A DNA stretch of 64,000 bases, from the IMG/VR virus record IMGVR_UViG_3300044712_000982, positions 42,286-106,285 of that record. The stretch is one strand, 5' to 3'. The notes under the pieces were generated by a model. It did not search any database, was not told where the DNA came from, and saw only the letters and a program-made list of their open reading frames with translations. The number at the start of each line of letters is the position of its first letter. The first letter of the stretch is position 1. This DNA is from a virus. A program made the translations under genes and the position numbers. Below are positions 29,234 through 57,801 of this stretch, one piece after another.

Positions 29234-30367
29234 TCACTTCTTCGCATCGAGTCGCACCGGCATCATCAGGTACACGTACCCACCCATCGGCGCACCGTCG
29301 CCATCCGCGGGCGTCAACGTGGCCGGATTCTTCGGCTCATTGAACGACAGCGTCGCCATCGAAGTCCCGACCGACGCCAACCCATCGAGCAGATATTGAT
29401 GGTTGAACGCGATCGTCATCGACTCGCCGTTGTACGTGCAGTCCATGGCCTCGCTGGCGCGGGCGTCCTCGCTGCCGCTGGCCTCGACGACAAGACCGTC
29501 GTCGCTGAACGACAGCCGGATCGGGGTCGAGCGCTCGGCGACCAGGGCCACCCGCTTCACAACCTCCGCCAGCTCGCCGACGACGACCGTCGCGGTGGCG
29601 GCGAACGAGTCTGGGATGAGTCGACGAACCGGCGGGAATTCGCCGTCGATCAGCCGCGACGTGGTGCGCCGTGCGCCAGCCGCGAACCCGATCATGCCCT
29701 CGCCGATGGTGCCGCGCGACAGCGCAACCCCGACCGTCCCGGCGCCACCGATCGTCTTCGCCATGCCCTCCAGCGTGCGCGCCGGAATCAGCGCCGACAT
29801 GCCGCATGCCGGGTCGTCGGGCGTCCACGGAATGTCGCACACGGCCAGCCGGAACCGGTCGGTGGCGAGCATCGTCAACGTGTCGCCGGACAACTCCAGC
29901 CGGACCCCGGCGAGGATCGGCAAGTTGTCGTCACGTCCAGCGGCGACGGCCGTACGTGCTACCGCCCAGGCGAACACGCCAGCGTCGACGCTGCCGGCCG
30001 AACCTGGCATGGGTGGCAGTGCCGGGTAGTCCTCGACCGCCATCGTCGGGAGCGTGAACCGGCCCGACCCGCACACGATCTCGACCTGCGCGCCGACCGT
30101 CGAGATGTCGACCGGCTTGTTGGGCAGCACCTTGGCGATGTCGGCGATCAGCCTCCCCGACACGAGCACGGCGCCCGGCTCGGAGACGTGCGCCGGGACC
30201 GTCGTCTCGTTCGACACTTCGAAGTCGAAGCCGCTCACGGTCAGGTGATCGCCGTCGGCGCGCAGCATCACACCAGCCAGGATCGGCAACTGCGTCCGGG
30301 TCGGAAGTGCCTTCGCCGTTGCGGTCACGGCCGAGGCCAGGTCGTCACGGCCAATACGGATCTTCAT
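29234..30367 (-). CDS. dnaN: DNA polymerase III beta subunit (sliding clamp)
   Basis: 377 residues, full length for a bacterial clamp. Three tandem clamp domains are visible: the first from MKIRIGRDDLASAVTATAKAL, the second near FAWAVARTAVAAGRDDNLPILAGVRLEL, the third ending YVYLMMPVRL. The usual C-terminal M-P-[VM]-R-L signature is present. It encircles DNA and tethers the replicative polymerase, so the element may use its own clamp with the host polymerase. The start overlaps the MazG-like stop. Confidence 0.92.
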   Translation of the reverse strand: MKIRIGRDDLASAVTATAKALPTRTQLPILAGVMLRADGDHLTVSGFDFEVSNETTVPAHVSEPGAVLVSGRLIADIAKVLPNKPVDISTVGAQVEIVCGSGRFTLPTMAVEDYPALPPMPGSAGSVDAGVFAWAVARTAVAAGRDDNLPILAGVRLELSGDTLTMLATDRFRLAVCDIPWTPDDPACGMSALIPARTLEGMAKTIGGAGTVGVALSRGTIGEGMIGFAAGARRTTSRLIDGEFPPVRRLIPDSFAATATVVVGELAEVVKRVALVAERSTPIRLSFSDDGLVVEASGSEDARASEAMDCTYNGESMTIAFNHQYLLDGLASVGTSMATLSFNEPKNPATLTPADGDGAPMGGYVYLMMPVRLDAKK

Positions 30368-30618
30368 TCGATTCCCTCCAGTATCGCGTAGGCGACCGCG
30401 GCCACCTGGACTAGTTCTTCACGGAGCGCGTCCGGGTCGCAGTCGAGCGCGGCCCGTGCGACCTCCCCGCATTCCTCCGTCAATACGGCAACCTTCACCA
30501 TTAGCGGCACGTCGGGGCTGGAGCAGTCCCCGTGGCCGTGCGCATGCTGGCGTCCCCACAGCCGACGTTGCCGCGCACGCTCGGCGGCAACGTCGGCTGT
30601 AATGTCGTCGAATTTCAC
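30364..30618 (-). CDS. MazG-like NTP pyrophosphohydrolase
   Basis: 84 residues from the GTG at 30618, overlapping the methylase stop. Contains AERARQRRLWG..KVAVLTEECGEVARAAL..LREELVQVAAVAYAILEG, with the EExxE and ExxD-like helices of all-alpha MazG-type hydrolases. Could clean or adjust the nucleotide pool, or lower (p)ppGpp, during replication. Coupled on both sides. Confidence 0.7.
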   Translation of the reverse strand: MKFDDITADVAAERARQRRLWGRQHAHGHGDCSSPDVPLMVKVAVLTEECGEVARAALDCDPDALREELVQVAAVAYAILEGIE

Positions 30619-32588
30619 AGCTCGAACAGCCGCGGCTGCGACATCTCGTCGTCGAGACCGCGCAGCGTCTTGACTGCGGTCTCCCAGTAGGACGGCTTCA
30701 GTTCGATGCCGAGCGCGCGGCGTCCCCGCTTGACGGACACATACAGCTCGGATCCGATGCCGGCGAACGGCGTGAACACAGTCTCGCCCTGCCGTGAATA
30801 CATCCGGACGCACCGGTCGATGAAATCCAACTGGAGAGGACAGTTGTGAACGACGGCGCCCTCCGCGACGAAAGAGGCGTCGTCCTCCACCTGAAGGTCC
30901 CATACCTCTGCGAATCCTGAGGGCTGCGAACGGCGCACCTTCTTCCATGCTCCGTCGGTGTCTATCCACCCAGACTGGCGGTATCCCTCACTGTTCCGAA
31001 AGGCGAAGATCCAGTCCTGGCGGGCAACGACCGACCGACCGTCGATCACGTGCTTGCGTTCTGGTCGGCCAGCGTAAACGCTCGCCACCACGCCACGGGC
31101 ACGCTGTGCCACCATGGCCATGCCCAGCAGGAGCGCCCGAGATACCGACGATGCCGTCCACCGGTCGTAGCGTCCGACGTAGTGACCATCGGCCGACAGA
31201 TATCCGGCCAACAGTGCCTCCGCTTTCGGCTGTGGCAACGTCAGAAGTTCCCCCGGCACTCGCTTTCGATGGGCACCCTCGCCGCAACGGGCTAGCGTGG
31301 CGCGGAGGTCGGGTGACAGGTTCCTGAGGCTGACTTGGATGTCGGTGCCGGGGTCATGGGCCGCCCCTGCCTGGTGCCCCAGTCGCTCCGAAAGTTCGGC
31401 GAATTCACCCCGCGCGCACGACAGGATGAACTGACCCGTTCCGCCCCGTACGCCACTACGGCGATGAGCCGACGCTCGGTGTCCATCGCCCAGCCACCTA
31501 CCAATGACCCAACACTCATGCTCGCTGAGTGGTGACTCTTCTATCGGAGGCAACGGAAGGTTGAGGTACGAACCCAGCGTTTCAGATGCCGGAATCCACT
31601 CCGGCGCAGCAGACTGGGCTCGAGCCTTGGCATGAGGCCCAACACCCCGACGGGCCCACAGCATATGGTCGGCGGTGGTACGAAGATCTGCAACCCCCTG
31701 GGCGCATGTACGAATCACCGGCTCAATGCCGTTGCACCGCTTCGCGGTTACCGCACGCCATCGGCCATGGTGGGTCAATACCTCGCCCCCCACCGGTACG
31801 GTCTCGATCGGCACGTACCCGTCCCGGGTAAGCACCAGCGATCCTTCGGCCAAGCAGATGTGCCTCTCATCCTCCGGATCGCGGCCGGCACGGACGTTGA
31901 GCGTGTTCGTCTCCTTGATGTCGGTCCATACCGGAGAGATGTGCTCACCGCCGAGCGCGGCACCCTCGCCACGGTCGAACCAGATCGGCGACGCCCACTC
32001 GATCCACTCATCGTTGGTGAAGTCCCCACCCTTCGCGTCGTGCGGGATCTTCGCCGCGTTGTCGCCGGGCTTCTTGAAAATCAGAAGGTAGTCGGCGAGT
32101 GCCGGGCGGATACCCATCGAATCGCGGTTCTTGGTCTGAAATGCGAGCGAATACGAATGCGTGCGGATACTCTGCGCCTGCGGGTCTTTCCAGATCGTAG
32201 CCTCCCCATAGAAGATCCATCCCTCATCCTGGAATGCCCGGATCACGTCGCCGCGGAAGTCGGTCAGTCCGATGTGCCCGTGGGTGACCTTCGACGTCGT
32301 GAGCTGCTGAACGTGCACGCAGGCGTTGCGTCCCGGCTTCGTGATCCGCAGCTGCTCACGGATGATGAACCGGTAGTGGTCCAGGAATTCCGTACGGGTG
32401 GACGAGTTGCCCAGGTCGCGGACGCTCGGCGAATAGACGAAGAGCGAAGCGAACGGGGGGCTACACACTGACAGGTCGACCGACTCATCCGGAATCTCGG
32501 CCATGCGCTCGCACGAGTCGCCGAGCATGAGCCGCCACATGTCGCCGCATGCGTCGTCGGTCACGTATCCGTCGGTCTCGGTGGTCAC
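30615..32588 (-). CDS. DNA methyltransferase interrupted by an intein
   Basis: 657 residues. The N-extein carries the catalytic DLSVCSPPF (residues 38-46, motif IV of N4C/N6A enzymes). The C-extein carries TPFAGIG (606-612, motif I for S-adenosylmethionine). Between Ile244 and Cys583 lies a 338-residue intein. The C-extein resumes with CPLQLDFIDRC, the conserved motif X-like segment. After splicing the enzyme would be about 319 residues. It probably modifies element DNA against restriction. GTGA overlaps link it to the helicase upstream and the MazG-like gene downstream. Confidence 0.85.
   Translation of the reverse strand: MTTETDGYVTDDACGDMWRLMLGDSCERMAEIPDESVDLSVCSPPFASLFVYSPSVRDLGNSSTRTEFLDHYRFIIREQLRITKPGRNACVHVQQLTTSKVTHGHIGLTDFRGDVIRAFQDEGWIFYGEATIWKDPQAQSIRTHSYSLAFQTKNRDSMGIRPALADYLLIFKKPGDNAAKIPHDAKGGDFTNDEWIEWASPIWFDRGEGAALGGEHISPVWTDIKETNTLNVRAGRDPEDERHICLAEGSLVLTRDGYVPIETVPVGGEVLTHHGRWRAVTAKRCNGIEPVIRTCAQGVADLRTTADHMLWARRGVGPHAKARAQSAAPEWIPASETLGSYLNLPLPPIEESPLSEHECWVIGRWLGDGHRASAHRRSGVRGGTGQFILSCARGEFAELSERLGHQAGAAHDPGTDIQVSLRNLSPDLRATLARCGEGAHRKRVPGELLTLPQPKAEALLAGYLSADGHYVGRYDRWTASSVSRALLLGMAMVAQRARGVVASVYAGRPERKHVIDGRSVVARQDWIFAFRNSEGYRQSGWIDTDGAWKKVRRSQPSGFAEVWDLQVEDDASFVAEGAVVHNCPLQLDFIDRCVRMYSRQGETVFTPFAGIGSELYVSVKRGRRALGIELKPSYWETAVKTLRGLDDEMSQPRLFEL
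30843..31856 (-). mobile_element. LAGLIDADG intein in the methylase
   Basis: Intein residues 245-582 of the methylase. It starts with Cys245 (CLAEGSLVLTRDGYVPIE), has block B TTADHML, two LAGLIDADG-type helices (VIGRWLGDGH and LLAGYLSADGH), and ends VVHN before Cys583. All residues needed for splicing (Cys1, block-B His, terminal His-Asn, +1 Cys) are visible. The endonuclease should home into intein-less alleles. Confidence 0.9.
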
Positions 32589-37708: not shown

Positions 37709-37848
37709 CGCAACGCACCTGCGACGAGCGCGGCGCCGACCATCAGGCCGATGGCGGAGGGCCACCACGCGGCGACCCGCAGCCACAGCGCCGGCCGGGG
37801 CACGATGGCGATGACCTCTGCGGTCACGACGGGTACGAGTTGGCTCAC
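37705..37848 (-). CDS. 47-residue membrane protein
   Basis: GTG at 37848 overlaps the TraB/FtsK stop. One membrane segment (WPSAIGLMVGAALVAGAL) after a Trp-rich amphipathic stretch. Likely a small Spd-type accessory of the transfer operon. Confidence 0.6.
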   Translation of the reverse strand: MSQLVPVVTAEVIAIVPRPALWLRVAAWWPSAIGLMVGAALVAGALR

Positions 37849-39740
37849 GACGTCACCTGCCAGGGGGTTCCGCTGCCGCTTGGCTGCCTGATGTCTCCGG
37901 ACTCGCGCAGCTCGGCGAGTACGGCACGGAGTTGCGCAGGCCTGACCGGGCAGTCGGGCCGATCGAGGAGGGCATTCGCTGTCTGCGGTGAGATCCGTAG
38001 CCGTGCGCGAATCCACTCCTTTGTCGAGGTGGGTTTCTGCGGCGGCGGGCTCGGGTGGACCCCGAATGCGGAGAGCCGGTCGGCGACAGCGGCGGCTGCG
38101 CTTCCGAACGTTTCGCGAGGCGCGTCCGCTGCCGCTCGCCGCTGTTGCCCGCTGGTCGAGGGTTGCTCGGCTTGCTCGGGCTGGTCGACGATCCACCTGA
38201 TGGGGCGGCGGACGTGCCGCGCGGAGGCTGCGGCTTCGTCGAGGAACGGGACGCGTCCGAGCATGCCGATCCGTTCGGCTGCGCGGGAGTAGCCGCTTCC
38301 GGCGGTCTTCAGTTTCTTGCCGCCGATCTCGATCTCGATGGGGATGGAGAATGGGTCGCCGATGAAGTCGTCGGGGAGCACGGTGGTGCCACTGCCGCGG
38401 TTGGACAGTCGGAGGATGAGGGCGTTTCCGGCGACGGCGGCGTCACGGATCCGGATTGATCCGCCGAGTGATTTCATTTGCGGGAGTTGGGTGGCGAGGA
38501 TGACGGAGACGCCGGTTTTGCGGCAGATCGCCATGATCTCTTCGAGCATCTCGACGATCTGACGGTCTTCGCTGGACATCGTGAGCACCAGGTGGCATTC
38601 GTCGATGATGACGGCGAGTTGCCTGATCCCGAGCGCAATGATTTTCGGGTCCGCCTGGTCGTAGGCGTCGATACCTTCAGCCGCCAGCCGGGACGATCGT
38701 TCCATAACCTCGGCGTGGAGCCTGCGGATTAGGTCTTTCGTCGCCGTGACCCCGTTGTGGTATTCGCCGGCAGTGTCCCGCCATTTCGGCAGTGACTGGC
38801 CGTTTTGCGGGTCGCAGACGACGACCATCACACCGGCGTGGAGGAGGTTGTCGATGATGACGCCGAGTGCGCGGCTCTTCCCGGCGTTCGACGAGCCGAC
38901 GATGAGCCCGTTGAGGGTTCCAGATCCTTCCTGCTGGTGGATCCAGGTGCACGGGGTGCCGTCGGCGTAGGTGATGATCTGGAAGCGTCCGTCGCGGTAG
39001 GTCGGGCCGGGGTAGCGAACGGGCAGTTGGATGTATGAGCGCTCGACGATGACGAGCTGGAGTTTCGCGGCGCGTCCGGTGCGTCGCCAACCAACTGAGC
39101 CTTCGGGGAGGTCGAGGCAGGTTTCGACGGCGGAGCCGGTCTTGACGACCTCCCCGATTTTCGTTCCTGGCAGGAGCCGGATTGTGGCTTCGATGACACC
39201 GGCGCGGACGGTCTTCGCCACGGTGAGCAGCGTATTTTTGCAGACCCCATGGCCGATGACTTCGGTGCGCCACCTCTGCACCCATTCGTCCGTCCGGTCG
39301 ACCTCCGGCTCGGGGTCGGGCTCGACCACGTCACGTAGGTGACGCCACCACGGCCAGCCCAGGAGCGGGGTGACGATCGCCAGGATCGGAATTGAGGGGC
39401 CGTGGGTGAGCGGATCGGCCAGCAGCGCCCACAGTCCGAGCGTCCCGGTGATCACGGCTCGGTAGCAGCGAATCCATCCCGAGTGGGTGCGCCACCCGGC
39501 GGCGATGAGCACGGCGACCGCCACGGTGCCCCACTCCCACCAGCCGGACAGGTCGAGCCACCCGGAGGCGACGGCGGCGAGCCACGCTGTGGCGGCCCAG
39601 TACGCCGGCAGCATGCGCCGCCACGTGTGCTTGAGGATCCAGCCAGCCGCGATCAGCACCGCGGCGCCTGCCGTCGCGGATCCGGTGACTGCCGCCCCGG
39701 CTGCCCGCTGTTTGATTCCTGCCGTCGCCATTTTGTTCAC
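37845..39740 (-). CDS. TraB/FtsK-type conjugative DNA translocase
   Basis: 631 residues. Four hydrophobic segments in the first ~135 residues. RecA-like motor: Walker A GSSNAGKS (282-289), Walker B LAVIIDE (375-381), sensor ATQLP (416-420). After a Gln/Ser/Ala linker the C-terminus (about 575-631) reads as a winged helix (TKEWIRARLRISPQTANALL), comparable to the sequence-recognition domain of Streptomyces TraB. Proteins of this design move double-stranded plasmid DNA between mycelial cells. The main gene of the transfer region. Confidence 0.9.
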   Translation of the reverse strand: MNKMATAGIKQRAAGAAVTGSATAGAAVLIAAGWILKHTWRRMLPAYWAATAWLAAVASGWLDLSGWWEWGTVAVAVLIAAGWRTHSGWIRCYRAVITGTLGLWALLADPLTHGPSIPILAIVTPLLGWPWWRHLRDVVEPDPEPEVDRTDEWVQRWRTEVIGHGVCKNTLLTVAKTVRAGVIEATIRLLPGTKIGEVVKTGSAVETCLDLPEGSVGWRRTGRAAKLQLVIVERSYIQLPVRYPGPTYRDGRFQIITYADGTPCTWIHQQEGSGTLNGLIVGSSNAGKSRALGVIIDNLLHAGVMVVVCDPQNGQSLPKWRDTAGEYHNGVTATKDLIRRLHAEVMERSSRLAAEGIDAYDQADPKIIALGIRQLAVIIDECHLVLTMSSEDRQIVEMLEEIMAICRKTGVSVILATQLPQMKSLGGSIRIRDAAVAGNALILRLSNRGSGTTVLPDDFIGDPFSIPIEIEIGGKKLKTAGSGYSRAAERIGMLGRVPFLDEAAASARHVRRPIRWIVDQPEQAEQPSTSGQQRRAAADAPRETFGSAAAAVADRLSAFGVHPSPPPQKPTSTKEWIRARLRISPQTANALLDRPDCPVRPAQLRAVLAELRESGDIRQPSGSGTPWQVTS

Positions 39741-39791: not shown

Positions 39792-40205
39792 TCAGCCTTC
39801 GAGGACTTCCCGGTCGGCGAGGTTCCCGGCGGCGTCGGCCGCGTCCGCCACCGCCCCGTCGCGGGCGTTGAAGTCGCTGGTGGCGGCGGTGAACGACTCG
39901 GTTGCCGCCTGCAACTTGGCTTCGGCGGACCGGGCTGATTCGGCGGCGGCGTGGTAGTCGGCGGCTGCTGACCGTGCCTGCGTGGCCGCGTCGCGGAGGT
40001 GCTCGACGGTCGAGGCGGCCATCTTCGCTGACTCGTAGTTGTCGGCGGCCTGCTCGAAGGTCGCGGCGGCGGCCTCGGCGGCCTCGGCGTTCTCTTCGAG
40101 CTGGGCGGCGGATGCGCCGGCGTTGGTGGCGGATTCCTCGGACCATTCGGCGCCTTGGGCGAATGCGGCGCGGATGGATTCGGGTCCTGCTGCCTCGGTG
40201 TTCAT
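39792..40205 (-). CDS. Ala-rich coiled-coil protein
   Basis: 137 residues, almost entirely Ala/Glu/Asp helices (AAQLEENAEAAEAAAATFEQ). Coupled to the gene upstream (ATGA). Lies between membrane proteins and the DNA pump in the transfer operon; perhaps a structural partner of the transfer apparatus. Confidence 0.65.
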   Translation of the reverse strand: MNTEAAGPESIRAAFAQGAEWSEESATNAGASAAQLEENAEAAEAAAATFEQAADNYESAKMAASTVEHLRDAATQARSAAADYHAAAESARSAEAKLQAATESFTAATSDFNARDGAVADAADAAGNLADREVLEG

Positions 40206-40804
40206 GCTCCACTACCTTCGTTGATCTTGGGTGGTACGGATTCCAGTTCCGGGATGGGTCTCAGCTGCTGCGGACTGCCGCTCCGCGCGGGCCTCTTCGT
40301 CCTTCGGGCCGGCGACGGACGGCGCGTCGGCTCGGGCATCGTGTCTGGGTCTTCGTCGGTGTCGGTGTGGTGGATGTCGGTGTGTTGCTTCGACGCGTCG
40401 TCGGCGTTGCGTTTGAGCTGGTATGGACGGGATCGCCAGTCGCACAGGTCGCAGTTGCCGTACCAGTGCTTTGCCTGCCGGTCGTATTCGATGGCGACGG
40501 GGCCTCGCGTGCGGCGTTCGCGGTAGATGGCGCGGCGCTCCTCTCGGCGTTGGCGGCGCTGCTCCCACCGTTCGGGGCGGCGTTCGCGGGCGGCGTCAGA
40601 GGCGTCCTCGATCAGGTCGGCGAAGTACTTGCCGATCGCCGACCTGGTGCGCTTCGGCTCCCTGCCGGCAGCCCGGTCGACGCGCTCGCGCTTTTCGCGT
40701 TCCTGCCTGCGCGGCGATGTCTTCCCGCGGGCTGCGGCGACGACGTCCTCGAAGATCAGGGCGATGACCTTCAGTGTGATGAGTACGAGTACGACGTCGA
40801 CCAT
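40202..40804 (-). CDS. membrane protein with Arg-rich linker and Cys-His motif
   Basis: 200 residues. N-terminal membrane segment (MVDVVLVLITLKVIALIF), a very Arg/Glu-rich middle, then NCDLCDWRS..KQHTDIHHTD, which looks like a C2H2-type zinc site, and a Pro-rich tail. Possibly a membrane-bound nucleic-acid-binding spread factor. Confidence 0.65.
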   Translation of the reverse strand: MVDVVLVLITLKVIALIFEDVVAAARGKTSPRRQEREKRERVDRAAGREPKRTRSAIGKYFADLIEDASDAARERRPERWEQRRQRREERRAIYRERRTRGPVAIEYDRQAKHWYGNCDLCDWRSRPYQLKRNADDASKQHTDIHHTDTDEDPDTMPEPTRRPSPARRTKRPARSGSPQQLRPIPELESVPPKINEGSGA

Positions 40805-42589: not shown

Positions 42590-42633
42590 GACCAGTACCT
42601 GCCGTATGCGAGCACGAGTTCGACGATGGTCAT
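42586..42633 (-). CDS. 15-residue micro-ORF
   Basis: MTIVELVLAYGRYWS. Its ATG overlaps the stop of the DUF2637 gene and its TG-A overlaps the next ATG, so it could pass ribosomes along the operon. Too short to prove. Confidence 0.35.
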   Translation of the reverse strand: MTIVELVLAYGRYWS

Positions 42634-43979
42634 CGGGTCTCCTCAGGCTGGGCGGCTTCTGCAATTGCGCGGTCGATGAGGTCTTGCACCGCTGGGTAGC
42701 CGATACCGACGCCGTTGCGGGCGTTGCGGATGGCGTCGTAGACGGCGCGTTGTCCGGGTGCGTTGCGGCCTTTGTTGCGGGCGGTTGCAACGAGTGGCCG
42801 GACGATGTTCATGAGGTCGTCGTCGCCGGTTGCAACTGGATCTGCAACGTGGTCGACGGCTGGTGTTGCAACGGGCTCGGCCGGGCTGGCTGTAGGCGCC
42901 TCTGTGGGTGTTGCAACTGGCCCTGGGCGCGGCGTTGCAACTGTCGCGGCTGGTGCCGTTGCGGGCTTCCGTTGCGGTCGCCGGCGGCTCTTCGTCCGGG
43001 TGGCCTTTCGGCTGGTGGGGCGTGTTGCAGCCGGTGTTGCAACCAGTTCGGCGGCGGGTGTTGCAACGGCCGGGGCGACGTCTGCAACGGGCGTGATCCG
43101 CTCGGCGGTCAGCTCGGTTGCAATGAGGTCGGTGAGGCCGTTGTAGTCGGCTCGGTCGGCGAGGAGTTGCGCGACGCGATCCATGTCGTAGGTGAGGGTT
43201 GCAATGTCGGCGTAGGTGGGGCCGACGCGTGTTGCAATCTTGGCCCGTAGGGCTGTTGCAATCGCTGCGCGTCGGGCTGCAACTTGGGCGGCGTTGCGGG
43301 CGGCTTCGAGGCTTGCAACTGTGCCGAGTTGCGGATTCTTGATGGCGCGGCGACGCGCGTCGGTTGTGATCTTTGGGTGGCGGATCCACTGCCACGGGCT
43401 GTACACGGGTGGGGTGCTGACCATCTTGTTGGCTGCGCGTTGCGCGTCGCGGTACCGGGCCGCCGAGATGATCAGGTAGACGGTGTAGCCGAGCGCGGAG
43501 AACCCGGCGAAGAAGCAGGCTTGGAATCGGTTGTTGTCGTGCCCGAAGAAGTTGATCGCCACGGCACCAGCAGCGATCGCGGCGGAGATGATCCGGGCGA
43601 CGATGGCGTGCTCGCCGAGGCGGCGGCGGGAGTCGGCGTGCATCGAGAGGACAACTCCGCCGAGTTCGGCGGCGGAGACGGCGGCGAGGGCTGCGGGGAG
43701 TTTCCAGTCGAGTTTCCCGGCGGCGGCTTGCGCGGAGCCGACGAGTGCGACCGCGAGGACGGCGAGGTAGAAAGCCGCGGTGATGAGGTTGCGGAGTTTG
43801 CTCGTGGTGGGCGTCGCGGTGGTCGGCTCCGGCTGGCTGTCGTTCTGCTGGCTTTGGCTGCGCTGCGGTTGATCGACGGGGGTAGTTGCGGTGGGCATGG
43901 CGACGGACGCTATCGGCAGGTGGCCGTGGCGCTGGGGGTGCCCGTTGACGCGGGGCGCCTCGCTGATCGCCGTGCTCAC
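42630..43979 (-). CDS. DUF2637/SpdB-like spread protein
   Basis: 449 residues from the GTG at 43979 with AAGGAG upstream. Residues about 60-150 hold four hydrophobic segments in the DUF2637 pattern (LAALVGSAQAAAG-like start; NRFQACFFAGFSALGYTVYL). The C-terminal half is helical, then a low-complexity Val-Ala-Thr-Pro region, then a small terminal domain (AVYDAIRNARNGVGIGYPAV). Such proteins aid plasmid spread along mycelium. Its gene carries many GTTGCAAC octamers. Confidence 0.75.
   Translation of the reverse strand: MSTAISEAPRVNGHPQRHGHLPIASVAMPTATTPVDQPQRSQSQQNDSQPEPTTATPTTSKLRNLITAAFYLAVLAVALVGSAQAAAGKLDWKLPAALAAVSAAELGGVVLSMHADSRRRLGEHAIVARIISAAIAAGAVAINFFGHDNNRFQACFFAGFSALGYTVYLIISAARYRDAQRAANKMVSTPPVYSPWQWIRHPKITTDARRRAIKNPQLGTVASLEAARNAAQVAARRAAIATALRAKIATRVGPTYADIATLTYDMDRVAQLLADRADYNGLTDLIATELTAERITPVADVAPAVATPAAELVATPAATRPTSRKATRTKSRRRPQRKPATAPAATVATPRPGPVATPTEAPTASPAEPVATPAVDHVADPVATGDDDLMNIVRPLVATARNKGRNAPGQRAVYDAIRNARNGVGIGYPAVQDLIDRAIAEAAQPEETR
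42783..43319. repeat. GTTGCAAC octamer cluster inside the DUF2637 gene
   Basis: TTGCAA occurs 12 times in ~540 bp, seven times as the full palindrome GTTGCAAC (near 42783, 42828, 42865, 42909, 42933, 43035, 43059), plus CTGCAAC variants. All lie in the same codon register (xTT GCA Axx = Val/Ile-Ala-Thr). The codons GTT and GCA are otherwise disfavoured in this GC-rich DNA. Confidence 0.75.
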
Positions 43980-43989
43980 TGGTTGCTCC

Positions 43990-44172
43990 TTAGGGCTGGG
44001 CGGGTTCGGGTGTCGGGATCGGTTGGGCGTAGACGTAGACGCGGACAGCGTCTTGGTCGCGGCGGGCGGTGAGTGGGCGGCTGACGTTGGTGACGTCGAG
44101 CGCCGCAACAAGCAGGTCGACGACGGGCTGGACGTCGTCGGGCTGGCCGACGACCCGGATCTCGACGCTCAT
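43990..44172 (-). CDS. small hypothetical protein
   Basis: 60 residues, MSVEIRVVGQPDDVQPVVDL opening, ending YAQPIPTPEPAQP. ATG overlaps the upstream stop. A compact alpha/beta protein frequent in actinobacterial transfer operons; function unknown. Confidence 0.65.
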   Translation of the reverse strand: MSVEIRVVGQPDDVQPVVDLLVAALDVTNVSRPLTARRDQDAVRVYVYAQPIPTPEPAQP

Positions 44173-52510: not shown

Positions 52511-53971
52511 TCACTTGATCGCCCCACCCTTCCGGAGCTTCGCGACCTCGGCGAGAAGATCGTTCCCGGCCTTGATGTCGAGGCGTTCACACTCGGTCCG
52601 AAGCCTGTCCCGGCCGTAGCTGGACGGCACCCGTTCGGCGTCCAGCCTCGCCGCGATCTCCGACACCCGAGGGTCGGCAGCGACCTTCCCTGCGGCACCT
52701 GACGGCGAGGTGACGCGCCACGACACGGACCCGTCTTCCCTCGGCGCCATCACGAACCGGCCCGCCGGCTGCGACTTACCGTCTACCGGGCAGTGCTTCC
52801 GCAACCCGCCGGGTCGGTCCTTGAACACGGTCATCGACGCCGCGCCGCCCTTTCCCGGCGCGAACACCTCAACCACCGTCACCTTCAAGTTCGACCCGTT
52901 CACTGCCCGCTTCTTCGCGATCGTGCCCGTCTGCCCGTGCGTACGGGCGTCCTCCCCCTTCGGCATGTGGTCGATCGCGATCACGGCAGCACCGGCGAGC
53001 GCCAGCGGCGTGAGTGCCCTCCGGTGACCGGCCGTGTAGTCGTCGGGCGAGTTGCTGGACAGCCCGAACATCGGAAGCATCTCCCCGATGCTGTCGACCA
53101 CTACAACGTCCGGCCTCCATTCGCGGAGTTGCTGAATCGCCATCCCGAGGACCATCACGTCGTCGGGTTCGGATAGCCGGAACCCGTCCGGGTCCGCTAG
53201 CGCATCCGGTTTCGCCCCGAGCGCTAGGAGCCGTGCGAGGACCTCTTGGGCGCCGTTGTGGTCCATGTCGAGCATGGCCGCGCGCTTCCCGTCGTTTAGG
53301 GCTTCGGCTACGGCTGCGAGCGCGATCCACGTCTTGCCGCACTCTGGGTCGCCGAACAGGACGTTGACTTTCCCGTCGTAGAACAGGCGGTGTCCGTCGT
53401 CGCGGCGTAGCAGTGTCGGTTCTGGCGGTTCCGGCAGTCCACCTCTGAGGATCGCGGCGGTGTCAACGAATACTGGCCCGTGGTCGTTATCGTCGCTTTC
53501 GCTGAGGTCGGCGAAGATCTTCGCGGTTCTGGCGACGTCACGCGCAACGTCGAGGTTGCCGGTCGTTACGGCTTGGCGGATGTTGGTGGCGAGCTTGATC
53601 CAGTATCGGCCCTCGGCGGCCTCGGCGACGCGTTTCGCGTACCAGGCCGGATCGCCGGCAGATCTCGATCCGAGTTGGAATAGCTCCACGATGTATCCGT
53701 GGTGCGGGAGTCGCACGTCGGCTTTGATGAGCGTTTCGCAGATCGCGGTGGGGTGGAACGGTTTGCCCTGATCGGCGTGATCGCACAGGTTCCGTAGGAT
53801 CGCCCGGTCGTGGTCGGCGCAGAAGTCGAACGGCTCGATGCATTCGCGGATTGCGTCAAGGTTGGCCATTGACTGCATGGCCATGCCGAGTGTGATCCGC
53901 TCATATTGTCGTATCTCGTCGGGTACAGCGAGCACGTCGGACCAGGTGTCGACGTCGAGGGCCGCAGTCAT
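52511..53971 (-). CDS. DnaB/RepA-like replicative helicase
   Basis: 486 residues from the ATG at 53971. N-terminal DnaB-N-like helical domain (IRQYERITLGMAMQSMANLD, FDFCADHDRAILRNL). RecA-like motor: Walker A GDPECGKT (207-214), Walker B VVVVD (289-293), then HRRALTPLALAGAAVIAIDH. The C-terminal ~60 residues look like a small DNA-binding domain (VSEIAARLDAERVPSSYGRD). It probably unwinds DNA at the adjacent palindrome cluster. Confidence 0.82.
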   Translation of the reverse strand: MTAALDVDTWSDVLAVPDEIRQYERITLGMAMQSMANLDAIRECIEPFDFCADHDRAILRNLCDHADQGKPFHPTAICETLIKADVRLPHHGYIVELFQLGSRSAGDPAWYAKRVAEAAEGRYWIKLATNIRQAVTTGNLDVARDVARTAKIFADLSESDDNDHGPVFVDTAAILRGGLPEPPEPTLLRRDDGHRLFYDGKVNVLFGDPECGKTWIALAAVAEALNDGKRAAMLDMDHNGAQEVLARLLALGAKPDALADPDGFRLSEPDDVMVLGMAIQQLREWRPDVVVVDSIGEMLPMFGLSSNSPDDYTAGHRRALTPLALAGAAVIAIDHMPKGEDARTHGQTGTIAKKRAVNGSNLKVTVVEVFAPGKGGAASMTVFKDRPGGLRKHCPVDGKSQPAGRFVMAPREDGSVSWRVTSPSGAAGKVAADPRVSEIAARLDAERVPSSYGRDRLRTECERLDIKAGNDLLAEVAKLRKGGAIK

Positions 53972-54047
53972 GCCGCGCTCATGTTCTTCCGGGGCGCGGC
54001 ATTGCTTGCTACCGTTGACACAGGGTTGCCCTCCAGTGGGCTCGAAG

Positions 54048-54080
54048 GCCGCCGCACGGTTTGGGGACCGCGGCGGCTTT
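54048..54080. terminator. GC-rich hairpin upstream of the helicase gene
   Basis: GCCGCCGC pairs with GCGGCGGC (54070-54077), followed by TTTCTG on the + strand. It lies between the end of the small XRE gene and the helicase start, so it may attenuate leftward transcription. Confidence 0.55.
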
Positions 54081-54087
54081 CTGTTGG

Positions 54088-54339
54088 TCAGGCTGTCTGC
54101 AATCTGCGGTTCCGGCGCTTCGGTGGCCCTTCGGGGCTGATCTCGTCGAGGTCGACGCCGAGGGCGTTTGCTATGGCTAGCCGTGTTGCCGGGAGTCCTT
54201 TGGTGACTCCGCTTTCCATGCGGCTGATGACGGTCGGGTCGAGGTTTGCCCTGCGGCCGAGTTCGGCCTGGGTCCATCCGTTGCGGAGTCTGGCGCGTTC
54301 GATGGCCTGCCCGTTGGTGAGTCCGGGTGCGATGGTCAT
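54088..54339 (-). CDS. XRE-type regulator, small
   Basis: 83 residues. ARLRNGWTQAELGRRANLDP then TVISRMESGVTKGLP is a clear XRE helix-turn-helix. Basic end. Divergent from another XRE gene across a 12-bp palindrome, an arrangement like phage immunity switches. Confidence 0.82.
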   Translation of the reverse strand: MTIAPGLTNGQAIERARLRNGWTQAELGRRANLDPTVISRMESGVTKGLPATRLAIANALGVDLDEISPEGPPKRRNRRLQTA

Positions 54340-54368
54340 GCATAGATCTTAGCAGGATCATGCATGAT
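54336..54368. promoter_or_regulatory. operator between divergent XRE genes
   Basis: Perfect palindrome ATCATGCATGAT at 54357-54368 and a related TCATGCAT at 54336-54343 overlapping the leftward start codon. GCACGATC repeats at 54395 and 54437 lie closer to the rightward gene. This looks like a two-repressor switch. Confidence 0.6.
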
Positions 54369-54449
54369 ATGCCGGTATCGGGCTGTACTTTTCTGCACGA
54401 TCCGGCAGCCTCTAGCACTTCACCCGTTCCGGTTGGCACGATCACCCGC

Positions 54450-54842
54450 ATGGACCGGAAAAGACTGGCAAATGCCGTAATTGCCCGTCGTGTCCAGCTT
54501 GGGCACCGGAGTCGAGAAGCCTTCGCCGAAGCCGCCGGCATCAGCCCACGCACCATCAGCTACATCGAGACCGGAGAGGATCGCAGGTACAACGCCTCAA
54601 CCGTCGCCCAGCTTGAGCACGCCCTGAAGTGGGCGCCCGGCTCAGTCGCTCGGATCCTGGCCGGCGGCGACCCGATGCCGCTGCCCGACAGTGCCCGGCC
54701 GATCCCCCCGCTCGCCGCGGAGTTGGCGGCGATGCTCGACCCTGACTCGCCCCTCACGCCCGAGGCGCGCGACTACCTCGGGCGGCTCGTGGACCTCGCC
54801 ATGACCCCGCACCGGCAGGCGATGCGACGGAGGGACAACTAG
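54450..54842 (+). CDS. XRE-type regulator
   Basis: 130 residues from the ATG at 54450. ARRVQLGHRSREAFAEAAGI then SPRTISYIETGE: XRE helix-turn-helix at about 10-65. C-terminal helical region (LGRLVDLAMTPHRQAM). Divergent partner of the 54339 gene. Confidence 0.82.
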   Translation: MDRKRLANAVIARRVQLGHRSREAFAEAAGISPRTISYIETGEDRRYNASTVAQLEHALKWAPGSVARILAGGDPMPLPDSARPIPPLAAELAAMLDPDSPLTPEARDYLGRLVDLAMTPHRQAMRRRDN

Positions 54843-55150: not shown

Positions 55151-55224
55151 ATGGGCGTAGCTCAATCAGGTAGAGCGCTGGTCTCCAAAACCAGTCGTTG
55201 CGGGTTCAATTCCTGCCGCCCATG
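55151..55224 (+). tRNA. tRNA-Trp(CCA)
   Basis: Acceptor ATGGGCG/CGCCCAT, D-arm GCTCAATCAGGTAGAGC, anticodon loop CTCCAAA, T-loop TTCAATT, discriminator G. First tRNA of the array. Confidence 0.92.
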
Positions 55225-55285
55225 CGCAACAGCCCCAGCATGCTGGCGGCGCACGAACGTTGAGAACTCCACAGCGGATGGCATT

Positions 55286-55358
55286 CGGGAATGACCGGCA
55301 CGGTGACCGGGCCTGATTTGGGATCAGGACGCAGCGCGTTCGACTCGCGTATTCCCGA
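55286..55358 (+). tRNA. tRNA-Pro(TGG)
   Basis: Acceptor CGGGAAT/ATTCCCG, D-stem CCGG/CCGG, anticodon loop TTTGGGA, T-loop TTCGACT, discriminator A. Confidence 0.88.
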
Positions 55359-55362
55359 CGAT

Positions 55363-55435
55363 GGGGTTGTAGCTCAGTTGGTAGAGCGTCGGCTCGGCAG
55401 ACCGAAGGCCGAGGGTTCGAGACCCTCCTTCTCCA
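55363..55435 (+). tRNA. tRNA-Ala(GGC), weak stems
   Basis: The acceptor GGGGTTG/CTTCTCC has the alanine identity pair G3-T70 but two T-T mismatches. The anticodon stem TCGGC/ACCGA ends in a C-A mismatch and position 33 is C instead of T. Loop gives GGC. May be decaying or need unusual processing. Confidence 0.65.
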
Positions 55436-55443
55436 CGCATCAT

Positions 55444-55519
55444 GCCTCTCAAGCTCAGCCAGGTAGCAGCGCGCGGTTGAAGCCCGCGAGGATTCCGGGT
55501 TCGACCCCCGGGGGAGGCA
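55444..55519 (+). tRNA. tRNA-Phe(GAA)
   Basis: Acceptor GCCTCTC/GGGAGGC, anticodon stem CGCGG/CCGCG with loop TTGAAGC, T-loop TTCGACC, discriminator A. Confidence 0.9.
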
Positions 55520-55527
55520 CGTTTCAT

Positions 55528-55601
55528 GGGCCGTCGGAGCAGATGGAACGCTCACCTCGTTCTCAGCGAGGAGAACACCGGTTCGAGCCCGGTACGGCCT
55601 G
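55528..55601 (+). tRNA. tRNA-Glu(CTC)
   Basis: Acceptor GGGCCGT/ACGGCCT (G1-T72), anticodon stem CCTCG/CGAGG with loop TTCTCAG, T-loop TTCGAGC, discriminator G followed by encoded CCA. Confidence 0.88.
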
Positions 55602-55605
55602 CCAC

Positions 55606-55678
55606 GCGGTCGTGGTGAACTCGGCGGACACATCAGTCTTCCAAACTGAGAAAGCGGGTTCGATGCCCGCCGGCCGCT
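55606..55678 (+). tRNA. tRNA-Gly(TCC)
   Basis: Acceptor GCGGTCG/CGGCCGC, anticodon stem TCAGT/ACTGA with loop CTTCCAA, T-loop TTCGATG, discriminator T. Confidence 0.9.
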
Positions 55679-55683
55679 CTCGT

Positions 55684-55757
55684 TCCGGGGTACGGCGCTG
55701 GCGTCCGTGACCGCACTTTGAATGCGGAACCCGTAGGTTCGATTCCTGCACCCGGAG
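55684..55757 (+). tRNA. tRNA-Gln(TTG)
   Basis: Acceptor TCCGGG/CCCGGA, anticodon stem CCGCA/TGCGG with loop CTTTGAA, T-loop TTCGATT, discriminator G followed by encoded CCA (55758-55760). D-stem short. Confidence 0.85.
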
Positions 55758-55761
55758 CCAT

Positions 55762-55835
55762 GCCGTGGTGGCCCAACCGGGAGAGGCGCTCCGTTCAAAG
55801 CGGAGAAGTTGGGGGTTCGAATCCCTCGCACGGCA
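55762..55835 (+). tRNA. tRNA-Leu(CAA) with short variable loop
   Basis: Acceptor GCCGTGG/GCACGGC (G7-G66 mismatch), D-arm GCCCAACCGGGAGAGGC, anticodon stem CTCCG/CGGAG with loop TTCAAAG, T-loop TTCGAAT, discriminator A. The variable region is only about five bases, whereas bacterial leucine tRNAs have a long arm. Confidence 0.78.
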
Positions 55836-55845
55836 CTCGTTCGAT

Positions 55846-55917
55846 GCGGCTGTAGCACAACGGTCAGTGCGTCGCCTTGCCATGGCGAAAACCGGGGTTC
55901 GACTCCCCGTAGCCGCT
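55846..55917 (+). tRNA. tRNA-Gly(GCC)
   Basis: Acceptor GCGGCTG/TAGCCGC, anticodon stem TCGCC/GGCGA with loop TTGCCAT, T-loop TTCGACT, discriminator T then encoded CCA (55918-55920). Confidence 0.92.
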
Positions 55918-55952
55918 CCACGTCCACCCTCAATGGCCAGGAGGTGTTTCCG

Positions 55953-56396
55953 GTGGACTCGGTACTTGTTCTCAACGCCGACCTCGGGCCGCTGCACCGG
56001 GTCAGCCTGCGCCACGCGATCCGGATGCTCTGCCGACAGGTGGCGGAGGTCCACGAATCGGAGCCCGACATACGCATCGGCGTGTTTCCGATGCCGCGGG
56101 TGGTGCGGCTCGTCGCGTACGTGGTGACCCGCTGGCGGTACAGCGCCGGCCCGGCGTGGTCGCGGACAGGTGTGCTCGCCCGTGACGGGCGGCGTTGCGG
56201 CTACTGTGGCAGTCCGGCAACCACGGTCGATCACATCCTCCCGCGGTCGCGGGGTGGCCGGAACGCCTGGAAGAACACGGTCGCCGCGTGTGGGCCGTGT
56301 AATCAGCGCAAGGGCGACAGGACCCCCATCGAAGCGCGGATGCCGCTGCGGGCCACCCCAGCGGCGCCGACCTGGGCCACGCTCGCCCAGCGCTAA
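55953..56396 (+). CDS. free-standing HNH endonuclease in the tRNA array
   Basis: 147 residues from the GTG at 55953 with AGGAGG upstream. N-terminal helper domain (SVLVLNADLGPLHRVSLRHA, typical of McrA-like HNH proteins). The HNH core is CGYCGSPATTVDHILPRSRG, then WKNTVAACGPCNQRKGDRTP. Two CxxC pairs bind zinc and His in VDH is catalytic. It interrupts the run of tRNA genes and is probably a homing endonuclease that spreads the array or itself. Confidence 0.88.
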   Translation: MDSVLVLNADLGPLHRVSLRHAIRMLCRQVAEVHESEPDIRIGVFPMPRVVRLVAYVVTRWRYSAGPAWSRTGVLARDGRRCGYCGSPATTVDHILPRSRGGRNAWKNTVAACGPCNQRKGDRTPIEARMPLRATPAAPTWATLAQR

Positions 56397-56461
56397 CGCT
56401 CAGAACCTCACGAGGATGGCCGGTGACGGCATGGGGTGACAGCCGGGAGAGACCGGCCCAT

Positions 56462-56533
56462 TCCCGGGTCGTCTAGCTGGTAGGACGCCGCGCTCTGAAC
56501 GCGGAAGGCTGGGTTCGAATCCTGGCCCGGGAG
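56462..56533 (+). tRNA. tRNA-Gln(CTG)
   Basis: Acceptor TCCCGGG/CCCGGGA, D-arm GTCTAGCTGGTAGGAC, anticodon stem CCGCG/CGCGG with loop CTCTGAA, T-loop TTCGAAT, discriminator G. Confidence 0.92.
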
Positions 56534-56546
56534 CGTTACCTCACAT

Positions 56547-56622
56547 GCCGGTGTAGCTCACGTTGGTTCCGAGCACCGCTCTTGTAAAGCGGAGAACGCT
56601 AGTTCGATTCTAGTCACCGGCT
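56547..56622 (+). tRNA. tRNA-Thr(TGT)
   Basis: Acceptor GCCGGTG/CACCGGC, anticodon stem CCGCT/AGCGG with loop CTTGTAA, T-loop TTCGATT, discriminator T. D-loop is long. Confidence 0.9.
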
Positions 56623-56626
56623 CTTC

Positions 56627-56700
56627 GGGCTCTTAGCTCATTTTGGTAGAGCACCTGTCTTGCAAACAGGAGGTGGCCGGTTCGAAACCGGCAGGGTCCA
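56627..56700 (+). tRNA. tRNA-Ala(TGC)
   Basis: Acceptor GGGCTCT/AGGGTCC with the G3-T70 identity pair, anticodon stem CCTGT/ACAGG with loop CTTGCAA, T-loop TTCGAAA, discriminator A. Confidence 0.93.
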
Positions 56701-56706
56701 CGTCAT

Positions 56707-56781
56707 GCCCGGGTAGCCCAAATGGTAGGAGGCGACTGGCTTAGAACCAGTTCAGTGCACGTTCGAATCGTGTTCCGGGTA
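56707..56781 (+). tRNA. tRNA-Leu(TAG) with short variable loop
   Basis: Acceptor GCCCGGG/TCCGGGT, D-stem GCC/GGC, anticodon stem ACTGG/CCAGT with loop CTTAGAA, variable loop TCAGT, T-loop TTCGAAT, discriminator A. Reads CTA codons. Class I shape instead of the long-arm leucine form. Confidence 0.82.
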
Positions 56782-56785
56782 CTTT

Positions 56786-56858
56786 GCTGGCGTAGCTCAG
56801 TGGTTAGAGCGCCGGATTGTCAATCCGGAGGCCGCGGGTTCGAGTCCCGCCGTCGGCG
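56786..56858 (+). tRNA. tRNA-Asp(GTC)
   Basis: Acceptor GCTGGCG/CGTCGGC, anticodon stem CCGGA/TCCGG with loop TTGTCAA, T-loop TTCGAGT, discriminator G. Confidence 0.93.
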
Positions 56859-56862
56859 CGTT

Positions 56863-56948
56863 GGAGAGTTGGCCGAGTTGGTTTATGGCGCCGCACTGCT
56901 AATGCGGTTCGGGTAACACCGTCGTGGGTTCGAATCCCGCACTCTCCG
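56863..56948 (+). tRNA. tRNA-Ser(GCT)
   Basis: Acceptor GGAGAGT/ACTCTCC, anticodon stem CCGCA/TGCGG with loop CTGCTAA, long variable arm TTCGGGTAACACCGTC, T-loop TTCGAAT, discriminator G then CCA. Confidence 0.93.
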
Positions 56949-56952
56949 CCAT

Positions 56953-57026
56953 GCCGTCGTGGCCCGCGTGGTAAGGGCGTCTCGCCGATAACGAGAAGGT
57001 AGGGAGTTCGACTCTCCCCGACGGTA
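56953..57026 (+). tRNA. tRNA-Ile(GAT)
   Basis: Acceptor GCCGTCG/CGACGGT, anticodon stem TCTCG/CGAGA with loop CCGATAA (C at position 33), T-loop TTCGACT, discriminator A. Confidence 0.88.
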
Positions 57027-57030
57027 CTTT

Positions 57031-57103
57031 GCCCCCGTAGCTCAATGGATGGAGCAGCGGCCTACGAAGCCGTGGTATGCGAGTTCGAATCTCGCCGGGG
57101 GTG
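57031..57103 (+). tRNA. tRNA-Arg(ACG)
   Basis: Acceptor GCCCCCG/CGGGGGT, anticodon stem GCGGC/GCCGT with loop CTACGAA, T-loop TTCGAAT, discriminator G. Confidence 0.92.
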
Positions 57104-57108
57104 CGTTT

Positions 57109-57183
57109 CGGGATGTAGCTCAGCTTGGTCAGAGCACGCGGCTGGGGGCCGCGGGGCCGCCGGTTCGAATCCGACCATCCCGA
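57109..57183 (+). tRNA. tRNA-Pro(GGG)
   Basis: Acceptor CGGGATG/CATCCCG, anticodon stem CGCGG/CCGCG with loop CTGGGGG, T-loop TTCGAAT, discriminator A then CCA. One C-A mismatch in the T-stem. Confidence 0.9.
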
Positions 57184-57187
57184 CCAG

Positions 57188-57261
57188 CGGGTACTAGCTC
57201 AACTTGGTGGAGCGCGCGGTCCGGGGCCGCGAGGATGGGCGTTCGAATCGCCCGTACCCGA
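57188..57261 (+). tRNA. tRNA-Pro(CGG)
   Basis: Acceptor CGGGTAC/GTACCCG, anticodon stem CGCGG/CCGCG with loop TCCGGGG, T-loop TTCGAAT, discriminator A. Confidence 0.9.
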
Positions 57262-57265
57262 CTGT

Positions 57266-57346
57266 GGAGGGTGGCGCCATGGTGGCAAACCGGTCTTGAA
57301 AACCGTGCCGGGGTAACGCCCGAGGGTTCGATTCCTTCACCCTCCT
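57266..57346 (+). tRNA. tRNA-Ser(TGA)
   Basis: Acceptor GGAGGGT/ACCCTCC, anticodon loop CTTGAAA, long variable arm GCCGGGGTAACGCCCG, T-loop TTCGATT, discriminator T then CCA. Confidence 0.9.
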
Positions 57347-57350
57347 CCAC

Positions 57351-57421
57351 GCGCCGCTAGCTGAGTGGTTTAGCACCGGACTCTTAATCCGGGGAGGAAG
57401 GTTCGATCCCTTCGCGGCGTA
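57351..57421 (+). tRNA. tRNA-Lys(CTT)
   Basis: Acceptor GCGCCGC/GCGGCGT, anticodon stem CCGGA/TCCGG with loop CTCTTAA, T-loop TTCGATC, discriminator A. Confidence 0.9.
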
Positions 57422-57426
57422 CGTTT

Positions 57427-57499
57427 CCCTCGGCAGCTCGACGGAACGAGCAACGGACTTCTAAGCCGCTGGTTGCCGGTTCGATTCCGGCCCGAGGGA
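57427..57499 (+). tRNA. tRNA-Arg(TCT)
   Basis: Acceptor CCCTCGG/CCGAGGG, anticodon stem ACGGA/GCCGC with two mismatches, loop CTTCTAA, T-loop TTCGATT, discriminator A. Confidence 0.85.
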
Positions 57500-57505
57500 C
57501 TCTCT

Positions 57506-57577
57506 CTCCCGCTAGCTCAACGGACAGAGCGCCACCCTCCTAAGGTGGATGTCCACGTTCGAATCGTGGGCGGGAGA
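57506..57577 (+). tRNA. tRNA-Arg(CCT)
   Basis: Acceptor CTCCCGC/GCGGGAG, anticodon stem CCACC/GGTGG with loop CTCCTAA, T-loop TTCGAAT, discriminator A. Confidence 0.92.
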
Positions 57578-57582
57578 CTTAT

Positions 57583-57654
57583 GCGCCGTTAGCTCAGAGG
57601 TAGAGCTGCCGCCTTTTAAGCGGAGTGTCGCAGGTTCGAGCCCTGCACGGCGTA
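57583..57654 (+). tRNA. tRNA-Lys(TTT)
   Basis: Acceptor GCGCCGT/ACGGCGT, anticodon stem CCGC/GCGG with loop CTTTTAA, T-loop TTCGAGC, discriminator A. Confidence 0.9.
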
Positions 57655-57655
57655 C

Positions 57656-57726
57656 TGCGGGTGTGGTGGAGTGGAACCACGCTGGGCTCATAACCCGGAG
57701 ACGCCGTTCGAATCGGACACCCGCCA
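57656..57726 (+). tRNA. tRNA-Met(CAT), initiator-like
   Basis: Acceptor TGCGGGT/ACCCGCC with a T1-C72 mismatch. Anticodon stem CTGGG/CCCGG with three consecutive G-C pairs next to the loop CTCATAA. Discriminator A then CCA. The 1-72 mismatch plus the GGG/CCC stem are initiator-tRNA features. The outer T-stem pairs are weak. Confidence 0.78.
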
Positions 57727-57729
57727 CCA

Positions 57730-57801
57730 CGCGCGTTCGACTATGGGTTAGGTTGCGAAGCTTTCACCTTCGCGGAACGGGTTCGAGTCCCGTACGCGCG
57801 A
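57730..57801 (+). tRNA. tRNA-Glu(TTC)
   Basis: Acceptor CGCGCGT/ACGCGCG, anticodon stem CGAAG/CTTCG with loop CTTTCAC, T-loop TTCGAGT, discriminator A. D-arm is irregular. Confidence 0.85.

Follow-up and report, generated by a model that had tools for sequence, protein, structure and literature searches.

Element-specific octamers within spdB-type genes of a tailed-phage record and of actinobacterial plasmids covary with the C-terminal domain of the encoded protein, a candidate reader of these sites

The DNA studied here, to which we refer as the window, is a stretch of 64,000 nucleotides that corresponds to positions 42286-106285 of a virus record of 106,285 bases. Tailed-phage genes are found at about 4-20 kb of the window, and its minus strand codes for a TraB-like pump (37845-39740) and for an SpdB-like protein whose gene ends at position 42630; we are dealing with a tailed-phage record that bears an actinobacterial TraB/SpdB module. 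We place the start of the SpdB-like gene (42630-43979, minus strand; 449 amino acids) at the GTG at 43979, which has AAGGAG just upstream and is a better candidate than the TTG at 44111 with which the mechanically called reading frame begins. Elsewhere in the window, the phage encodes a DNA polymerase III beta clamp complete with its three domains (29234-30367), and a DNA methylase gene (30615-32588) is perhaps intein-bearing, since it also gives weak matches to Hint/intein splicing and LAGLIDADG domains. ARAGORN detects 33 tRNA genes, 32 of them on the plus strand within 55151-58273. A tandem array of the 7-bp unit GGTGCTC is common to positions 63874-64000 of the window and to the first 119 bases of the record; as both ends carry the same array, the record is probably self-closing or was cut within it.

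The initial annotation had pointed to a TraB-like pump in the vicinity of the repeats, and this assignment holds. In tblastn searches, the FtsK-family translocase is 46-48% identical over 95% of its length to the products of three Micromonospora plasmids (48% at 95% coverage for plasmid pVMKU of Micromonospora maris), and the matched genes are annotated as conjugative transfer or ATP-binding proteins. The pump is thus an FtsK-like ATPase with full-length similarity to plasmid TraB proteins; its profile matches to FtsK_SpoIIIE and to NF041214 (plasmid_TraB) lie below the cut-offs, far below in the latter case. Searches with it returned three weak matches in phages and none in viral contigs. Between the two genes, the minus-strand ORFs 40202-40804 and 39792-40205 match the two ends of the gene located between spdB and traB on the plasmids (32% identity, E 1e-16, and 39%, E 9e-9, in a tblastn search with the L001 protein 'hyp430' against 39792-40804). 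Judged from these alignments, the gene order spdB - middle gene - traB is conserved between the window and the plasmids. The same neighborhood is common to the three Micromonospora plasmids, to the related loci of sufficient length, and to four further genome loci that derive from seven matches among 300 genomes of the family.

The feature that drew attention to this locus is a cluster of short palindromic sites in the coding sequence of the SpdB-like gene. The sequence GTTGCAAC occurs seven times between 42784 and 43067 (at 42784, 42829, 42865, 42910, 42934, 43036, and 43060), and five further copies of its core TTGCAA follow within 43117-43318 (at 43118, 43199, 43232, 43256, and 43313), so that twelve TTGCAA sites between 42785 and 43313 lie in one codon frame of the minus-strand ORF 42630-44111. 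The initial annotation had given exactly these counts, in a single codon register over about 540 bp, and we find them in 42784-43318; translation likewise bears out its description of a Val-Ala-Thr-Pro low-complexity region built on GTT-GCA codon pairs. The window holds nine copies of GTTGCAAC, against 0.85 expected from 100 dinucleotide shuffles, and the entire 106,285-base record holds the same nine, seven of them inside the SpdB-like gene, which makes up 1.4% of the record's length. When the gene was shuffled synonymously, with protein sequence and codon usage held fixed, 0.63 copies of GTTGCAAC and 1.09 copies of TTGCAA were expected, and in none of 5000 shuffles were the seven and twelve copies seen reached; these sites have therefore been under selection at the level of the DNA. 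The sequences flanking the twelve sites are only slightly alike (identity 0.40 versus a background of 0.33, standard deviation 0.02) and the spacings range from 24 to 102 bp, which argues against plain tandem copies and against duplication as their main source.

The protein encoded by this gene has three parts: a transmembrane (TM) domain, a low-complexity linker that is coded for by the repeat-bearing DNA, and a predicted helix-turn-helix (HTH)-like domain at the C-terminus. The most hydrophobic stretch of 120 residues starts at about residue 99 of the long ORF, and from this hydrophobicity, together with homology to the SpdB protein of locus L009, we place an approximate DUF2637-like TM domain at 43452-43796. 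It aligns to the L009 SpdB protein with 33% identity (E 1e-11), which in turn matches DUF2637 (PF10935) at 7.9e-8; the window protein itself has no direct DUF2637 match, has no match in Pfam, PHROG, or NCBIfam, and has no close relatives in the phages, plasmids, and viral contigs searched. For its last 69 residues, AlphaFold2 predicts three helices (5-23, 28-41, and 48-63) at low confidence (pLDDT 62.7). This candidate octamer reader (42651-42827) sits where the SpdB proteins of L001 and L002 have weak, sub-threshold HTH matches in Pfam, and a structure search with the model gave no usable PDB match. Because the model is of low confidence and matches in PDB, Pfam, and NCBIfam are lacking, the window protein is proposed as an HTH-type reader of GTTGCAAC by analogy. 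The N-termini of Streptomyces SpdB proteins have a weak coiled-coil likeness to DivIVA and Scy, far below the cut-offs, that may fit a polar placement of SpdB and is possibly generic.

Octamer clusters of this kind are a general property of SpdB-type genes. We assembled 38 such genes, namely 27 on plasmids, 10 on genome contigs, and that of the window; 24 of them, from plasmids of Streptomyces, Kitasatospora, Embleya, Natronoglycomyces, and Saccharopolyspora, had been hand-picked before testing as diverse matches of three overlapping tblastn searches (32, 53, and 62 records), and the incomplete, duplicate, or short loci L006, L011, and L092-L104 were excluded as SpdB genes. In 33 of the 38 the octamer cluster lies beyond all 300 synonymous shuffles. 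The five genes that fail this automated test are those of L007, L106, L108, L123, and L202; L202 was reached by one of 300 shuffles in one run and by none of 300 in another, and L108 passes only a targeted test on CGGTACC, a motif also present in L199 (11 copies versus 3.0; 5 of 5000 shuffles). Among the other genes used as controls, only 2 of 43 were beyond all shuffles: one of 32 non-SpdB genes in a first set (window 52511-54556, 0 of 200 shuffles, with three more at 1 of 200) and one of 11 in a second set (a neighbor of L206, 0 of 300). Nor is the cluster a generic property of DUF2637 genes, as just 2 of 30 DUF2637 loci drawn from 394 genomes of the class were positive, one (L126) with a 21-bp tandem spacing and the other (L152) with four copies of CCCGGACC. 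The octamer varies in sequence from element to element: besides the motifs of the relatives described below, we found CCGTACAG and variants of it in SAP1 and its relatives, CCGTACGG in 12, 16, and 19 copies (L206 among its carriers), CGTGAGAG (the octamer of L119) with variants, CGGAACAA, TCGATCGA, and CCGGACCG. In most genes the repeats lie 3' of the TM-coding part; L116, L117, and L202 deviate from this by single sites in the region coding for the N-terminal part, and L119, L120, and L121 by some sites within or bordering the TM-coding part.

One might suspect that the repeats reflect a cause at the level of protein or codons, that is, a low-complexity Val-Ala-Thr linker, tandem duplication, or a pacing of translation. 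All twelve sites of the window lie in one frame and encode V/I-A-(T), and L122, L206, and the DUF2637 locus L126 bear visible tandem duplications, which account for much of their signal. Copies are likewise confined to one frame in L001 and L009, which nearly holds for L010 and L206-L208 as well; as the copies of the window, L001, and L009 share a frame, the protein sequence does contribute. Against such an origin stand the synonymous shuffles, none of the 5000 of which attained the counts of the window, the low number of positive control genes (2 of 43), and the arrangement of the sites in relatives: in L114, L119, L120, L121, L124, L200, L204, and L209 the repeats occur in two or three frames and, the palindromic L121 excepted, on both strands. 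Sites that occupy several frames and both strands, taken together with the synonymous shuffles, argue for selection on the DNA, and we consider a protein- or codon-level cause highly improbable and have rejected it on these two grounds.

The repeats are also concentrated in spdB on the scale of whole plasmids, as seen on nine of the 15 plasmids given W handles, whose entire sequence was retrieved. On three plasmids, 9 of 10, 7 of 8, and 7 of 8 copies of GGCGGAAA lie in spdB; the corresponding shares are 7 of 11 for CCGTACAG, 6 of 6 for TGAGAGCG, 8 of 8 for CGTGAGAG on the 21.6 kb plasmid of S. chartreusis NBC_00851, 10 of 10 for CGGAACAA, 38 of 41 for TCGATCGA, and 25 of 47 for CCGGACCG. Four further SAP1-like plasmids have half or fewer of their CCGTACAG copies in spdB (6 of 13, 4 of 8, 5 of 12, and 5 of 11). 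The spdB cluster is not necessarily the strongest octamer cluster of its element: on four of the nine whole plasmids and in the phage record a cluster outside spdB scores higher, and in the latter the spdB cluster ranks third, behind the twice-counted terminal array. Strong clusters outside spdB lie near position 4889 of NZ_CP108881 (AACGCGCA, 27 copies) and near 35884 of SAP1 (NC_004719; CTTCAGCA, 11 copies).

The loci that share the neighborhood of spdB and traB permit the question of which protein reads the octamers to be narrowed down. At nine of these loci (L001-L005, L008, L010, L105, and L107), a gene of the same plan located upstream of traB carries 7-11 copies of GGCGGAAA(TC), and on the three complete Micromonospora plasmids the decamer GGCGGAAATC occurs only in spdB (4/4, 4/4, and 3/3). 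The octamer of L009 is GCGGAAGCAG and that of L108 is CGGTACCG, whereas a cluster of this kind is absent from the SpdB-type genes of L007 and L106. Repeats of 8 bp are read by TraB proteins of Streptomyces, as described in PMC4170104 and PMC12857230, and the initial annotation, which referred to such repeats and to the nearby pump, had suggested that the cluster may serve as a site for transfer or partition. As a site read by the pump, the cluster would be a clt/TRS locus whose octamers are read by the C-terminal winged helix of TraB, which would load there for transfer. The TraB relative 3 kb from the cluster, the conserved gene order, and the fact that both the repeats and a recognition-helix-like stretch of TraB differ between the window and the plasmids are in keeping with it. 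Yet the stretch of TraB that we assigned by eye as its recognition helix (PVGKSQLYALLK and its counterparts) and the repeat dissociate in both directions. L107 and L108 share the stretch PVGKSQLYALLK but carry different repeats (GGCGGAAA versus CGGTACCG), and VEQSQLYALL is common to L005, which has a GGCGGAAA cluster, and L106, which has none; conversely, L107 and L001 have the same repeat and different TraB stretches (VGKSQLY versus VNQAQLY). Moreover, L007 possesses a TraB protein like that of L003, but a different SpdB C-terminus and no GGCGGAAATC on its contig of 66.8 kb. On account of these four dissociations we reject TraB as the reader of the octamers and regard the clt/TRS explanation as unlikely. 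The suggestion of a site hidden inside the SpdB-like gene is supported by the synonymous shuffles and by 32 other SpdB-type genes, while its attribution to the TraB winged helix finds no support. Of eight genes downstream of spdB on other plasmids, three match a Walker A pattern, and among these three one or more (W10) end in a winged-helix-like stretch.

The repeat goes instead with the C-terminus of SpdB. In partial Mantel tests, motif similarity correlates with similarity of the last 60 residues of SpdB when the TM domain is controlled for, with r = 0.77 for 33 genes and 0.79 and 0.50 after dereplication to 25 and 14 genes, none of 10,000 permutations reaching the observed value in each case, although the p-values implied are too small, since the 38 genes were chosen by similarity and are related. 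The converse correlation of motif with TM domain, with the C-terminus controlled for, is negligible (-0.07, 0.01, and 0.15 for n = 33, 25, and 14). These tests used the 33 genes beyond all shuffles, the five failures being left out, and the automatic top octamer as the motif; they replace an earlier version with 31 genes in which the motif strings had been assigned by eye. Individual pairs illustrate the same behavior: in L199 and L119, whose TM domains resemble each other (score 0.80), the C-termini are unrelated and the motifs differ; L001 shares its motif and a similar C-terminus with L004/L008, their TM domains being unrelated; and L009 combines a related C-terminus with a related motif. 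Such joint exchange is in part simple linkage because the sites and the HTH adjoin in one gene. As judged from these sequence comparisons, a change of repeat goes along with a change in the C-terminal domain of SpdB, and with a change in neither its TM domain nor the winged helix of TraB. This covariation across 33 genes also bears on the notion that the repeats are iterons, or a centromere, for an unlinked reader such as a replication initiator or ParB and are merely parked in spdB. Iterons and parS sites often occur in clusters and can be situated within genes, as exemplified by parS1 in parB1 of SCP1 (PMC13245405); however, an unlinked reader does not sit well with a repeat that changes with the SpdB C-terminus, and the three Micromonospora plasmids have their parA and parB genes elsewhere. 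We judge this origin improbable.

Among other phages and viral contigs, one further example came to light. Phage relatives were collected via the protein encoded by 5833-7617 (80 of 137 kept), and a TraB-like match was present in one of the 20 virus records searched (G015, 29%). G015, which is related to our element via the phage gene (61% identity), has an FtsK/TraB-like gene and, about 2.3 kb upstream of it, a gene (L113, 2727-4226) whose product combines a hydrophobic domain with a low-complexity region and is basic at its C-terminus; we call it SpdB-like by eye, from its plan and its place. It carries eight copies of GCGGCCGA(A) in two frames and on both strands, a count reached by none of 300 shuffles, and forms a 39th example outside the counts of 38. 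The SpdB proteins of L001 and L009 had no match in viral contigs, and that of L108 had none in phages or plasmids. A scan of viral contigs for three clustered copies of GTTGCAAC gave 70 stretches; seven of these were viewed, six of which had an ORF with at least three octamers, and none of the seven looked SpdB-like by eye. Three copies of GTTGCAAC are present in each of two phage small-terminase genes (L276 2476-3363 and L277 416-1261; 5 and 1 of 2000 shuffles), where they may be pac sites inside terS, and, on a viral contig of 88 kb, three lie in the part of a gene (L269 6864-8105; 0 of 2000 shuffles) that encodes a 'PVATG' linker; the product of the latter has no Pfam match and by eye looks like a replication-type HTH protein. 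In 10 of 11 phage relatives scanned (L012, L015, L017, L020-L024, L027, and L028), a cluster of AAGGCCGA is located close to the 5833-7617 homologue or immediately upstream of it, at around 5.3-9.2 kb.

The data reported here lend themselves to a model that we hold, on balance, to be the probable one: the octamers are predicted protein-binding sites kept in the linker-coding part of the gene, and the HTH-like C-terminal domain of SpdB is their likeliest reader, tethering the element from which it is encoded. The spdB gene would thus probably carry both an address label and the protein that reads it. SpdB would be seated in the membrane through its TM domain, its C-terminal domain would bind the octamer cluster on its own element, and the DNA so bound would be anchored to the membrane beside TraB, an anchoring that would serve the movement of this DNA between cells or within the mycelium as well as its stable inheritance. 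The linker, the repeats, and the HTH would constitute one cassette, exchanged as a unit of reader and sites, and each plasmid or phage-plasmid would thereby receive its own address tag. A different use of the same sites, namely that the protein binds its own coding sequence to block transcription and plays no role in DNA movement, would be compatible with all sequence data, and the presence of sites and reader in one gene suits such a feedback roadblock. Nevertheless, sites that number from 4 to 40 and for the most part lie 3' of the TM-coding region would be unusual for autoregulation, which moreover should have no need of a TM domain, and we deem it quite improbable.

A broader principle can be put forward tentatively, with the chances slightly below even: actinobacterial conjugative plasmids and phage-plasmids may possess, in spdB, a modular self-recognition cassette made up of a reader domain and 4-40 cognate octamers. 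Because site and reader move together, the choice of DNA to be tethered, spread, or retained by a transfer apparatus with an otherwise interchangeable pump would fall to this cassette, which would thereby set the transfer identity of an element and possibly its incompatibility. The joint working of TraB and Spd proteins awaits study (PMC12857230), and in our view the same goes for the means by which a spreading plasmid is distinguished from other DNA. A cassette of site plus reader can be read from the sequence and may yield a code that leads from the SpdB C-terminus to its octamer; furthermore, it would place a conjugation-type DNA address on tailed phages.

Other genes that carry the binding site of their own product include lambda O with its iterons and terS genes with their internal pac sites, which differ from the present case in the proteins and functions concerned. 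Among the open-licence matches listed, there is no report of repeats inside spdB genes; since key TraB/Spd papers lie outside the literature searched, this is weak evidence for novelty. According to PMC4170104, no Spd protein resembles a functionally characterised protein. SpdB2 of the Streptomyces plasmid pSVH1 is, like the protein proposed here, an integral membrane spread protein that binds DNA, and it interacts with TraB; it differs in that its binding is reported as non-specific, which counts against a site-specific SpdB reader, and in that the accessible text describes no embedded site for it (PMC4170104). With the TRS/clt sites of TraB from pSVH1, our repeats have in common that they are clusters of about 8 bp, plasmid-specific, and located in the transfer region with an FtsK-type pump nearby (PMC4170104; PMC3583192; PMC12857230, as far as the excerpts go); unlike these sites, they lie inside spdB and do not go with the winged-helix recognition stretch of TraB. 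The parS1 site within parB1 of SCP1 again represents a DNA-binding protein whose gene holds its site, with another function and, in the portion of PMC13245405 at hand, neither a membrane anchor nor a switching of site and reader between plasmids; the same source describes Spd1 and ParABS of SLP2 as redundant for intramycelial movement. The closest parallel is SpdA2 of the Streptomyces plasmid pIJ101, which binds sps palindromes inside spdA2, and the coding region of this plasmid spread gene thus includes the sites that its product binds; silent removal of these palindromes, or loss of spdA2, lowers segregational stability, and transfer is unaffected by removal of the sites (PMC4170104, as excerpted). 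Here as there, a repeated site lies within the coding sequence of a spread gene under selection on the DNA; in our case, what bears on a putative binding by the encoded protein is the covariation of site and C-terminal domain. SpdA2 is a protein of 135 amino acids with a zinc-finger-like match, and its 12-bp sps site is conserved between plasmids in one to three copies (PMC4170104, as excerpted); in contrast, we deal with a membrane protein and with a site of about 7-10 bp that is plasmid-specific rather than a single conserved sequence, has 4-40 copies, and switches together with the C-terminal domain. We class the feature found in the window with the systems in which a gene embeds the site of its own product, and not with the TRS of TraB.
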